DNA of 64,000 nt from Methanosarcinaceae archaeon (GTDB lineage Archaea; Halobacteriota; Methanosarcinia; Methanosarcinales; Methanosarcinaceae): positions 1 to 64,000 of the forward strand of contig JAUWQD010000007.1 in NCBI GenBank assembly GCA_030611265.1, written 5' to 3'. Below the pieces are notes generated by a model. It worked only from the letters and a program-made list of their open reading frames with translations. It ran no database searches and was not told the origin of the DNA. Position numbers and translations under genes: made by a program. Positions 12,771-19,494 of this stretch are shown piece by piece (position 1 is the stretch's first letter; every line of letters begins with the position of its first letter).

Positions 12771-13541
12771 TTATAAAAATGTTGATTCGAATACATCTGC
12801 CTCTTTGCCGATGACAGTTTCAGATGGATATACAACAATGCCCTCATCTGTGATTGCATACGGATGCAGGATTTCATCGTGCTTCACACCACGCATTTTG
12901 ATTATCTCAATAGCACGAACACGATTTCCACCAACTCTGGATACATGCAAGCGAATCACACCTTCTGACAGGTATTCTTCCATACTGAACTCCTCAACAT
13001 TGCTGTGTAGTTCACTTGTTATCAGTGTGGTGCAATCGAAATTCTCCAGATTCTTGATGAATTCCATGATCATGTGCCTGACAGTTGTTTCGTCAGATGA
13101 TATCTTAAGGGACGTAATTGAATCAATGAAAAGACGTTTTGCTCCAATCTCCTTTACCTGTGCAAATATTTGTTTCAGCAGATTCTCAACAGTTGCAGTT
13201 TCAACATCAGTGATTCCTTCTGCCTGAATTGATTCTTTGATATATCGTCCATATGCGATTGGATTTGCCCGAATAATCCGCAACTTGTTCTCTTTTATTG
13301 GTCGTTCAAGGTCCCAGTTGTGCCGCCACATATTCCGTATGATGCGTGCAGGGGACTCTTCCAGTGTAACATATACCCCATTGTCACCATAATTTTTGAT
13401 ACCGTCATACAGGAACTGTATCCCAAAAGTTGACTTGCCTGCACCCGGACCTCCGGTTAGCAGGATTACATCATTCTCGATAAAACCGCCTTCTATAAGT
13501 TCATCAAGTCCGGGGATTGCAGTTGGTACGCGAGTCATCAC
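12771..13541 (-). CDS. KaiC-like RecA-superfamily ATPase
   Basis: This 256-residue single-domain KaiC/RadA-type protein has PTAIPGLDELIEGGFIENDV, Walker A TGGPGAGKSTFGIQFLYDG near residue 30, and a Walker B-like strand RLFIDSITSL near residue 155. ETTVRHMIMEFIKNL and GVIRLHVSRVGGNRVR follow, as in the archaeal KaiC group. It is translationally close to the downstream radical SAM gene. Proteins of this group act in signalling and cell-surface regulation; the role here is unknown. Confidence 0.85.
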   Translation of the reverse strand: MMTRVPTAIPGLDELIEGGFIENDVILLTGGPGAGKSTFGIQFLYDGIKNYGDNGVYVTLEESPARIIRNMWRHNWDLERPIKENKLRIIRANPIAYGRYIKESIQAEGITDVETATVENLLKQIFAQVKEIGAKRLFIDSITSLKISSDETTVRHMIMEFIKNLENFDCTTLITSELHSNVEEFSMEEYLSEGVIRLHVSRVGGNRVRAIEIIKMRGVKHDEILHPYAITDEGIVVYPSETVIGKEADVFESTFL

Positions 13542-16221: not shown

Positions 16222-16779
16222 ATGAATACGTCTACCACAAATAGCACACATCAACACAAGAAAAATACACACGGCCCATATAACTTTTTCCTTGTGACAA
16301 TCTCAACATCAAGAGCAGAAAAATATGGTGGGGATGGAACTGTTTCAAATCCTGAAGATGCAGATGATATGTCAGGACAGGTCATGCGAGACATCATTAC
16401 ACAAAATGGGCATCATGTCGTGAAATATTCACTCATAAGCGATGAGGTGAATGAAATACAGGATGCTGTAAGATCTGCAATCGACACCGACGCAGACATA
16501 ATAATCACAAGTGGTGGTACAGGGCTGGCATCAAGAGATGTTACCATCGAATCCATCACACCGATGCTTGACAAGGAAATGCCTGGTTTTGGAGAACTTT
16601 TCAGATACAAAAGCATCCAGCAGATCGGCGCATCAGTGATATTGACGCGGGCAATTGCAGGAGTTATAAAGAACAAAGCAATATTCTGCCTGCCGGGTTC
16701 TCCCAATGCTGTACGACTGGCACTTGATGAGATAATTATTCCAGAAGCAGGACACATCGTTAAACACACAAAAGAATGA
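16222..16779 (+). CDS. moaB: MoaB/MogA-type molybdopterin biosynthesis protein
   Basis: This 185-residue protein has the MoCF_biosynth fold, which adenylylates molybdopterin before metal insertion (molybdenum or tungsten). Motifs are VTISTSRAEKYGGDG, DADIIITSGGTGLASRDVT and FCLPGSPNAVRLALDEII. The first 20 residues (STTNSTHQHKKNTHG) are a non-conserved tail. It is the first gene of a plus-strand series but lies about 110 bases before the KaiC gene, with AT-rich promoter-like sequence between. Confidence 0.92.
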   Translation: MNTSTTNSTHQHKKNTHGPYNFFLVTISTSRAEKYGGDGTVSNPEDADDMSGQVMRDIITQNGHHVVKYSLISDEVNEIQDAVRSAIDTDADIIITSGGTGLASRDVTIESITPMLDKEMPGFGELFRYKSIQQIGASVILTRAIAGVIKNKAIFCLPGSPNAVRLALDEIIIPEAGHIVKHTKE

Positions 16780-16892: not shown

Positions 16893-17603
16893 ATGATCAA
16901 AATGTCAGGATATTCACTGGGAATCAAAGAAATAGATGATATCATAGGCAGAATAAGGGGAGGAAGTAATATCATGATGGTAGGCCCTCCTATGAGCGGC
17001 AAGGATGAAATTATAAATACCATCATATATAACGGATTTATTGAAAATAATTCAGCGATCGTTGTATCCACCCGTGAACCCGGGGAACGTGTGTTTGAGT
17101 GGTTTGAACAAAACGGTTTGGATATATCTGACGCAAATATCGGAATTGTGGACTGTGTTACAAAAACACTTGGCATGGGTGCTGCTGACACTGAAAACAT
17201 CAAACGTGCCTCAAGTCCTGTTGACCTAACTGGAATTGGTGTCAAGATCAGCCAGTTCTTTGAAGAATTCCTGATGAAAAGGAACATTCCAGATACAAGG
17301 TTATGTATCAACTCACTTTCCACTATTTTGATGTATTCCAATATCCAGACAGTTTTCAGGTTTCTTCATGTTTTCACAGGACGTGTGAAAGCAGCAAATG
17401 CACTCGGAGTATATGTTGTTGAGGATGAGATGCACGATCCACAAACCATAGCCACCTTAAAACAACTCTTTGATGGCATGATAGAGATCAAAACAAATGG
17501 AGACGGCTATGCAATGAGAGTTGTAGGGTTTACCCCAAAACCAACACCATGGTTTAGTTATGAAATGGATGGAATGAATATCACCATGCAGGAGAGTGAG
17601 TGA
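16893..17603 (+). CDS. KaiC/ArlH-like ATPase, first gene of the KaiC-GTPase-roadblock operon
   Basis: This 236-residue RecA-fold protein has LGIKEIDDIIGRIRGGSNI, then Walker A-like MMVGPPMSGKDEIINTII near residue 30. Asp replaces the usual Ser/Thr after the lysine. AIVVSTREPGERVFEWFEQN and a Walker B-like LCINSLSTILMYS near residue 140 follow, as in ArlH/KaiC-like archaeal ATPases. Its stop overlaps the start of the next gene (GTGACC, TGA within), so the two are translationally coupled. The pattern suggests a regulatory ATP-binding partner rather than a motor. Start ATG 16893 or 16902. Confidence 0.85.
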   Translation: MIKMSGYSLGIKEIDDIIGRIRGGSNIMMVGPPMSGKDEIINTIIYNGFIENNSAIVVSTREPGERVFEWFEQNGLDISDANIGIVDCVTKTLGMGAADTENIKRASSPVDLTGIGVKISQFFEEFLMKRNIPDTRLCINSLSTILMYSNIQTVFRFLHVFTGRVKAANALGVYVVEDEMHDPQTIATLKQLFDGMIEIKTNGDGYAMRVVGFTPKPTPWFSYEMDGMNITMQESE

Positions 17604-18778
17604 CCATGATAGAAACAGGCATCACTAAACTGGATGACTATCTTATGGGTGGTATTCCAAATGGCAAGTCACTTGTATACTATATACATCCGGGTGTTGA
17701 AGGCAATGTATTCGGAATGCAGACATTATATCACAACCTTGCAGAAGGCAGTAAATGTGTGTTCATAGCATCGAGTTCTGACCCATTAATGATAAAGGAT
17801 ACGTTCAAGGAATTCGGATGGAATCTTGATGCACATAAAGAAAATCTTATTGTTGTGGATGCATATTCAGGATTGGTCGGAGCAACCTCTAACGAAAAAT
17901 ACGTTGTTGAGGACCCGGAAAGTATTGATTCACTTAATGGAACGATAGAAAAAGTGATGGAAGAACTCGATGAAAGTTCCACGATCATGTTCGAGTCATT
18001 GTCAACCATCATGGACCTTTGTGGAGAAAAGGAAACTATCGATGCAATTAAAAACTGGAACATGCACGGTATGTTGTATGAGCATGTACTCATCTATAAT
18101 TTCACTGCATGGCCGTATGAACCAGAGACGCTTGACCTTATCAAACACGAACTCTTTGATGCAGTCATCACTGTTGGCGGTATTGCCGAGCGGGTCATAT
18201 TCGGACAGTATTTCGGTGTGCTTAAAGCAGAATGGAGTGACATTGAACTTAAATCAATGTTGTTCAGGGTACTGCGACCCGGTGGAATAAGGATATATAT
18301 TCCAAAGATCGTTGTTACAGGTCCTTACAATGCAGGAAAATCCACTTTTGTACACGCACTGTCAACACGGGCAGTTTCTGTTGACAGGATAGGAACAACT
18401 GTTGCGCTTGACCACGGGCATGTTGATCATAAAGGATTCAGTGCCGATATATTCGGAACTCCGGGTCAGGAGCGTTTTGACCCAATTATCAAGATGTTAA
18501 GCGGAGAAGCCATGGGCATATTCCTTGTTGTCGATTCAACTAACACAAAGGACTTTGTACGTGCAAAGCAAATGCTTGAGATTACAAAAGCATACGGATT
18601 GCCACTTGTTGTTATTGCGAACAAACAGGACCAGAGTGGTGCACTAAAACCAGAGGATATCCGAAGTCATTTTAACATACCGGAAAGTGTACAAATACTG
18701 CCAGCAGTTGCCGACAAAGGCGTGGGAGTGTTTGAAGCCTTTGAAGCTCTTGTGGATAAAATAACGGAGGTGGCATGA
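17600..18778 (+). CDS. Fusion of a degenerate KaiC-like domain with a conservon/MglA-type small GTPase
   Basis: This 392-residue protein has two parts. Residues 1-230 resemble the KaiC/ArlH fold (TGITKLDDYLMGGIPNGKS, CVFIASSSDPLMIKDTF, TIMFESLSTIMDLCGE), but the Walker A site has become IHPGVEGNVFGMQ without the lysine. Residues 235-392 are a Ras-like GTPase: G1 TGPYNAGKSTFVHAL, a Thr in the TTVALDHG loop, G3 ADIFGTPGQERFD, G4 VIANKQDQ. The GTPase matches the COG2229 group that includes the CvnD proteins of Streptomyces conservons. The start is GTG 17600 or ATG 17606, overlapping the preceding stop. The next gene, a roadblock protein, follows by one base. Confidence 0.88.
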   Translation: MTMIETGITKLDDYLMGGIPNGKSLVYYIHPGVEGNVFGMQTLYHNLAEGSKCVFIASSSDPLMIKDTFKEFGWNLDAHKENLIVVDAYSGLVGATSNEKYVVEDPESIDSLNGTIEKVMEELDESSTIMFESLSTIMDLCGEKETIDAIKNWNMHGMLYEHVLIYNFTAWPYEPETLDLIKHELFDAVITVGGIAERVIFGQYFGVLKAEWSDIELKSMLFRVLRPGGIRIYIPKIVVTGPYNAGKSTFVHALSTRAVSVDRIGTTVALDHGHVDHKGFSADIFGTPGQERFDPIIKMLSGEAMGIFLVVDSTNTKDFVRAKQMLEITKAYGLPLVVIANKQDQSGALKPEDIRSHFNIPESVQILPAVADKGVGVFEAFEALVDKITEVA

Positions 18779-18779
18779 T

Positions 18780-19148
18780 ATGGCAAACGTGATCGAGATG
18801 TTAGAGAAGATACTTGCCGATACAAAAAAGGTAGGCGGTGTGGAAGCATCAGTTATCGCGAGTCGTGATGGCCTATTAATGGCATCCAATATCCCATCGA
18901 GTAGTGCAAGAGCTGAGACATTTGCAGCGATGTCTGCAACCATGCTCGGTGCGGCAGAGACTGCTACTACCGAACTTGGCAAGGGCATACCTGACAGGGT
19001 AATTGTCGAATCCGAACACGGAAAACTCATTGCTACCGGAGCCGGACCAAAAGCATTGCTGGTTGTACTTACAGATCCCAATGCAGGACTTGGTCTTATA
19101 CTTGTAGAACTTGAAAAGGCCGCTGAGAAGATAAAAAAAATAGTATGA
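18780..19148 (+). CDS. Roadblock/LC7 domain protein
   Basis: This 122-residue single-domain protein has ASVIASRDGLLMASNIPSS near residue 25, RAETFAAMSATMLGAAETA, and LIATGAGPKALLVVLTD. These are typical of roadblock/LC7 proteins (MglB and CvnB) that dimerise and control Ras-like GTPases. It follows the GTPase fusion with a single base between (TGATATGG), so coupling is strong. A GTPase-activating or scaffolding role is inferred from position and family, not shown. Confidence 0.92.
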   Translation: MANVIEMLEKILADTKKVGGVEASVIASRDGLLMASNIPSSSARAETFAAMSATMLGAAETATTELGKGIPDRVIVESEHGKLIATGAGPKALLVVLTDPNAGLGLILVELEKAAEKIKKIV

Positions 19149-19239: not shown

Positions 19240-19494
19240 ATGGATAAAGATAAATTATACAAACTGAAATCAGAAGCTGTTCAATTAAAACCAATAATCA
19301 ATATCGGAAAGAATGGTCTGACAGATGCTGCCATCGAAGAAGTGAAAAAACAAGTTAAAGCAAACCGCTTAATCAAAGTAAAGATGTTAAAAACCACAGG
19401 TGTGGATACCAAGACCCTCGCACAACAACTTGCAGACGCCACCAAGACCACATTGATCGAGGTTCGAGGCAGTACTGTAGTGCTTTATAGATGA
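19240..19494 (+). CDS. CRM-domain RNA-binding protein (YhbY family)
   Basis: This 84-residue protein has KLKSEAVQLKPIINIGKNGL and IKVKMLKTTG, followed by IEVRGSTVVLYR at the C-terminus. This is the CRM domain found alone in YhbY, which binds pre-ribosomal RNA. The GxxG-type loop is IGKNG. The 3' end overlaps the next start (ATGA at 19491), indicating coupling to the DNA glycosylase gene. Confidence 0.93.
   Translation: MDKDKLYKLKSEAVQLKPIINIGKNGLTDAAIEEVKKQVKANRLIKVKMLKTTGVDTKTLAQQLADATKTTLIEVRGSTVVLYR

Follow-up and report, generated by a model that had tools for sequence, protein, structure and literature searches.

Three tandem genes on the forward strand, designated K, F, and R, lie at 16893-17603, 17600/17606-18778, and 18780-19148 of the 64,000-nucleotide stretch of archaeal DNA analyzed here (the window), which belongs to a 2.86-Mb genome. 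K and F overlap by 4 bp if the GTG start of F is used, and the gap between F and R is 1 bp. The genes, their motifs, and the flanking markers are as follows.

16222..16779, + strand: moaB-like gene, the upstream syntenic marker, which adjoins K in K-only methanogens too
16893..17603, + strand: K, KaiC-like partner protein (DUF7504) of 236 amino acids, pseudo-ATPase-like in the window's lineage (ORF, Pfam)
16983..17006, + strand: P-loop remnant GPPMSGKD of K, with Asp replacing the Walker A Ser/Thr (motif comparison)
17310..17312, + strand: Walker B position of K (CINS), with Asn instead of Asp (motif comparison)
17600..18778, + strand: F, inactivated KaiC domain (iKaiC) plus small GTPase, 390 to 392 amino acids (start at GTG 17600 or ATG 17606)
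17606..18295, + strand: iKaiC domain of F, residues 1 to 230 (Pfam, motifs, fold models)
17687..17713, + strand: HPGVEGNVF, the conserved Walker A replacement in F (motif comparison)
18305..18775, + strand: small GTPase domain of F, residues 234 to 390 (Pfam, profile search)
18320..18343, + strand: G1 motif GPYNAGKS of F (motif comparison)
18455..18469, + strand: G3 motif GTPGQ of F, lacking Asp, a signature of MglA groups 2 to 5 (motif comparison)
18620..18631, + strand: G4 motif NKQD of F (motif comparison)
18780..19148, + strand: R, roadblock/LC7 protein of 122 amino acids, a predicted GTPase regulator (ORF, Pfam)
18867..18872, + strand: Asp-Gly pair of R, conserved in the MglB partners of MglA groups 2 to 5 (motif comparison)
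19240..19494, + strand: CRS1_YhbY gene (yhbY), the downstream syntenic marker

The product of F matched the Pfam family KaiC over residues 2 to 231 (2.8e-18) and Arf (1.7e-13) or Ras (2.2e-11) over residues 234 to 387. Rab and Arf-like chains ranked highest in a PDB profile search with the GTPase domain. Walker A and B are gone from the KaiC domain of F everywhere, mostly replaced by a conserved sequence of the type P[GE]VEG[DN]VFGM, and the GTPase is joined to iKaiC in all full-length members. These results bear out an earlier reading made from the sequence only, in which F was described as a KaiC domain lacking Walker A fused to a Ras-like GTPase. Nearly all members have the GTPase motifs G1 GPxxxGK[ST], G2 TT, G3 GTPGQ, and a G4 of the type N[KR]xD; the Gln of G3 is lost in Methanocella paludicola and in some Methanomicrobiales-like F proteins. 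With its KaiC fold, lost Walker motifs, and fusion to a signaling domain, F has the features of an iKaiC protein. Neither F nor K has the make-up of a KaiC clock ATPase, as the Walker motifs of F are lost, K has GKD and Asn, and each has one KaiC domain rather than tandem CI-CII domains. The third gene was correctly recognized as encoding a roadblock/LC7 protein (Robl_LC7, 9.4e-17), and R resembles CvnB5 (3leq), MfpD/Rv3364c (9hef), MglB, and other roadblock entries.

The distribution of F was surveyed in 186 genomes of the order at a threshold of E<=1e-30. F was present in 71: in 5 of the 7 genomes of the window's genus, in a single genome from another genus of the family, and in members of four other families. 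The remaining genera of the window's family had no match at this threshold in the order survey. When a profile search was extended to 393 sampled genomes of the Halobacteriota, 59 matched. The K-F-R trio was intact in every locus of the order with enough flanking sequence, in the main clade and in a paralogue. Families f2 and f3 (ANME-2) have a second system, ∼40% identical, with the gene order R-F-K, and in most members of this system (L032 to L037) the P-loop of K is intact (GKS, with the Walker B Asp). In other Halobacteriota, K-F-R was found at most loci and R-K-F at two, and Methanomicrobiales-like loci have K-F with no adjacent R. The dN/dS ratios of K, both halves of F, and R were 0.00 to 0.26, mostly <0.15, indicating purifying selection.

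We take family f9 to be Archaeoglobi, families f16 and f19 to be Methanomicrobiales-like, and three of the module-bearing genomes to be Methanocella arvoryzae, M. paludicola, and Archaeoglobus veneficus. The congeners of the window's genome include HMMV2, from which we infer that the window's species is ANME-3-like; we also infer that f5 and f2 are Methanoperedenaceae and Methanocomedenaceae. Contig C53 of genome G001 is DQIO01000189.1, HMMV2 is an ANME-3 'Ca. Methanovorans' genome, and family f3 is ANME-2c (L045, QBUV01000113.1; L046, DASC01000133.1) (Table 1, PMC9012536).

The description of K, F, and R as three coupled genes thus holds, in that they are tandem and tightly spaced and the trio recurs across ANME-3, ANME-2 relatives, and further classes. 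The survey of co-occurrence that had been proposed for the fusion gave the same picture, since F recurs across the Halobacteriota with K as its neighbor in nearly every case and R in most. An assembly artefact was rejected because the same fusion and trio are found in many independent assemblies. The general statement that the module is ANME specific was also rejected, because F occurs in Methanocella-like and Methanomicrobiales-like genomes and in Archaeoglobi, and because G004, a genome of the window's genus, has no module next to yhbY, although that contig ends nearby.

K is best matched by DUF7504 (E=3.7e-29), with KaiC (PF06745) at only 4.9e-9. Motif alignment revealed a GK[D/E] P-loop in nearly all ANME K proteins, with Walker B mostly Asn. 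GKS plus the Walker B Asp is kept only by K in Archaeoglobi-type loci and by most members of the ANME paralogue. The P-loop is erased from K in the Methanomicrobiales-like loci, K is truncated in L086 and L088, and an M. arvoryzae-like genome has F-R and no K. Judged by these motifs, K is a degenerate ATPase in the window's lineage.

The sequence-only reading had instead taken K for an intact KaiC/ArlH-like ATPase that, within a K-iKaiC heterodimer, drives the fused GTPase by its ATP cycle. Where K keeps GKS and Asp, namely in Archaeoglobi-type loci and most copies of the second ANME system, such a mechanism could apply. However, the replacement of the Mg-binding Ser/Thr by Asp/Glu and of the Walker B Asp by Asn, conserved through the ANME clades, and the erased P-loop, truncated K, or absence of K seen elsewhere make it quite improbable. 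The near-invariant GTPase motifs, set against variable or lost KaiC sites, suggest that the one catalytic site kept nearly invariant is that of the GTPase and that ATP use by K is dispensable, so that the previously proposed direction of signaling would be reversed.

K has a wider distribution than F. It was present in 126 of the 186 genomes of the order, including many methanogenic Methanosarcinaceae without F, and K without F was found in >50 methanogen genomes. The order moaB-K-yhbY was found in all 25 methanogenic Methanosarcinaceae loci examined, compared with moaB-K-F-R-yhbY in the window. The spacing between K and yhbY in those 25 loci was 78 to 247 bp; exactly F and R are missing. yhbY also follows R in f2, f3, and f5 loci. 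This contrast between ANME and methanogens within the order represents very few independent events and fails outside the order.

The persistence of K alone between moaB and yhbY under purifying selection, together with the K-less M. arvoryzae, might indicate that K and F-R are functionally separate, with F-R a stand-alone switch, K performing another job, and their adjacency an inherited gene order. However, K and F share a fold and are adjacent across several classes despite changes in gene order (K-F-R, R-F-K, and R-K-F), which simple inheritance of gene order explains poorly. Thus, functional separation seems unlikely.

Grouping of ANME-3 K with K of f2 (possibly ANME-2a/b) or f5 (possibly ANME-2d) was rejected (AU P values of 0.008 and 0.016, respectively). 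Grouping with f3 (ANME-2c) K was not rejected (P = 0.136), nor was monophyly of K within Methanosarcinaceae (P = 0.364). The K tree fits vertical inheritance within the family. F-R may have been lost repeatedly in methanogens or regained by recombination in ANME-3, and Chadwick et al. stated the same loss/regain ambiguity for other ANME features. From PMC5847659, a KaiC-REC swap could have been expected at this locus, but none was seen; in the methanogens F and R are just absent.

AlphaFold2 models support the predicted KaiC, GTPase, and roadblock folds. The M. paludicola-like protein, in which iKaiC, GTPase, and roadblock form one open reading frame (Pfam KaiC, 3e-14; Arf, 1.2e-8; Robl_LC7, 7.5e-13), was modeled with a pLDDT of 88.5 and a pTM of 0.75. 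The K-F chain of G238, in which a single in-frame stop was read through, gave a pLDDT of 89.5 and a pTM of 0.63, with a short artificial joint that could bias the domain arrangement. KaiC-family structures were the top Foldseek matches of both models (M. paludicola-like model versus 2dr3, TMt of 0.85). A predicted complex of K and F had been proposed as a check; each domain was confidently modeled, but with a global pTM of only 0.63 the folds were supported and the interface was not.

The natural fusion in the M. paludicola-like genome is accompanied by genome-level coupling of F and R. In 10 of 10 tested F-bearing genomes without an adjacent R, a roadblock gene was found elsewhere (E<=1e-8), and no R-type roadblock was found at the same threshold in three F-less methanogens tested. 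The roadblock protein of the ANME paralogue has Glu-Gly instead of Asp-Gly.

A gene for a V4R (Bet3-like) protein directly follows R in 10 of the 11 Archaeoglobi-type (f9) loci examined, with no match in L097. This raises the possibility of a platform with TRAPP/Ragulator logic, responsive to lipids or other hydrophobic ligands, in which roadblock and V4R proteins regulate the GTPase and the KaiC domains serve as scaffold. V4R, a homologue of Bet3, binds hydrophobic ligands (PMC2253512, PMC10933270), and Rag GTPases have a roadblock domain in cis (PMC11016934), as in the M. paludicola-like fusion. However, neither in the window nor in the inspected ANME loci was a V4R gene seen adjoining the module, the V4R genes of the window's own genome lying elsewhere, and we regard this explanation as doubtful. 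In the Archaeoglobi-type operon V4R comes fourth, for example at L115:7630-8229 and L119:7465-8061. Roadblock, GTPase, and V4R, which in Archaeoglobi are encoded in one apparent operon, also make up the Asgard/eukaryotic roadblock-GTPase-TRAPPC3 (V4R) assemblies, for which, unlike K-F-R, no KaiC-fold partner is mentioned (PMC10933270). In Asgard strain MK-D1, the roadblock, GTPase, and TRAPPC3 genes are generally not in shared operons (PMC10933270).

The actinobacterial conservons (CvnA-D/AGPS; Mfp system) likewise pair a small GTPase containing GTPGQ with a roadblock protein in an operon, and R resembles their MglB-type roadblock component. The suggestion that F and R follow the logic of MglA/MglB and conservon pairs is therefore upheld by GTPGQ, TT, and the coupled roadblock with Asp-Gly. 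However, conservons also have CvnA, CvnC, and a Group 2 GTPase with NxFD as G4, whereas K-F-R is archaeal, has NKQD, and combines an iKaiC-fused GTPase with K. No histidine kinase adjoins the window's trio and, by inspection, none recurs in related loci. CvnC was not found downstream of R, where yhbY lies in ANME loci and V4R in Archaeoglobi. Identity with a conservon was rejected on these grounds (no histidine kinase, no CvnC, and a different G4), and the idea of a KaiC pair standing in for the conservon histidine kinase is an analogy only.

Makarova, Galperin, and Koonin reportedly described iKaiC and KaiC proteins as signaling hubs of archaea in 2017. Such hubs link an inactivated KaiC-fold ATPase site to signaling domains, as in F. 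Unlike F, whose output is a small GTPase with a roadblock protein, the iKaiC proteins so named in the available portions of PMC5847659 have REC and HalOD1 partners. F-R has in common with MglA/MglB a Ras-like GTPase that contains GTPGQ and has Thr where the intrinsic Arg finger would otherwise stand, together with a coupled roadblock protein with Asp-Gly. MglA of groups 2 to 5 is a single-domain GTPase, whereas F is multidomain and coupled to K. The survey that defined the MglA groups, including the archaeal Group 4, reported no conserved neighbors for Group 4 and did not mention KaiC (Wuichet and Sogaard-Andersen 2014, PMC4316618).

Related genes were also found in other arrangements. Methanoperedens-like genomes have iKaiC by itself or joined to a different C terminus of ∼320 amino acids without a Pfam match, which in L197:2345-3997 is nitrilase-like by eye. 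At L203:2649-5999, in a Methanoperedens-like genome, genes for a PAS/HisKA_2 histidine kinase and for a REC-PAS protein adjoin a K paralogue and apparently share an operon with it. The window's own genome has 10 roadblock genes (Robl_LC7 search), and an R-type roadblock gene of this genome, in L166, adjoins a double-domain KaiC gene.

We consider it probable, with considerable reservation, that K-F-R is a G-protein switch of the MglA/MglB type built around a KaiC-fold scaffold, with R regulating the GTP cycle and K coupling inputs. The GTPase domain of F would be on with GTP and off with GDP, and GTP-bound F would signal via an effector. Like MglB acting on MglA, R, presumably as a dimer, would set the GTP cycle of F as GAP and/or GEF; MglB accelerates both hydrolysis and exchange. 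The iKaiC half of F, its ATP site lost, could serve as a docking or oligomerization arm, most likely paired with K, and K would be an adaptor linking the switch to lineage-specific inputs, perhaps the V4R ligand in Archaeoglobi. A coupling role for K and iKaiC, with inputs and outputs that can be exchanged, would fit iKaiC alone or with other C termini, the K paralogue beside a kinase, and the roadblock gene beside a double-domain KaiC. K without F in methanogens and F-R without K in M. arvoryzae suggest that each side can act alone.

A broader proposal, which we put forward tentatively and think unlikely, is that this is an ancient G-protein system of the Halobacteriota in which the scaffold of a Ras-like switch is a pair of KaiC-fold pseudo-ATPases instead of a receptor or kinase. 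Within the Methanosarcinales it would have been kept by methane/alkane oxidizers (the ANME-2 groups and ANME-3) and cleanly dropped from methylotrophic methanogens, a pattern that would tie its role to a syntrophic or electron-exporting life style. The Archaeoglobi version with V4R would be a non-Asgard relative of TRAPP-like GTPase control.

To our knowledge, small-GTPase signaling in non-Asgard archaea is almost uncharacterized. No description of the iKaiC-GTPase fusion was found in full-text literature on KaiC with roadblock/GTPase or MglA, a coverage that leaves out Makarova et al. 2017, nor was it present in the available parts of archaeal surveys mentioning roadblock or iKaiC. The K-F-R signaling module is apparently undescribed. 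Here the switch is identified along with its likely regulator and a scaffold, and some of the lineages that carry them have been cultured (Archaeoglobus and Methanocella), so that the function of an archaeal Ras-like switch is directly testable. The module is also testable through close methanogenic cousins without exactly the switch and regulator, because a locus that is otherwise conserved but has neither GTPase nor roadblock gene provides a natural comparison series. F and R add a nonmetabolic gene pair to the features separating ANME-3 from its methanogenic relatives.

Several further observations concern the locus and its relatives. A canonical KaiC-family ATPase with an intact Walker A (GGPGAGKS) is encoded 3.3 kb upstream of the module on the opposite strand (12771-13541, -), and several K-only methanogens have a similar gene close to K. 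In G004, from the window's genus, there is no module beside yhbY, and the contig ends ∼0.9 kb upstream; at L157:3684-4026 the intact yhbY has a duplicated yhbY fragment just upstream. K of L010 (G001) differs from the window's K with a dS of 1.4, compared with ∼0.4 for the adjacent F, a contrast that makes recombination or a strain chimera at the K/F border of G001 possible. A contig with K and F pieces (L051:1-863), the F piece being 91% identical to that of the window, was found in a MAG labeled Mollicutes and is likely misbinned ANME-3-like DNA.
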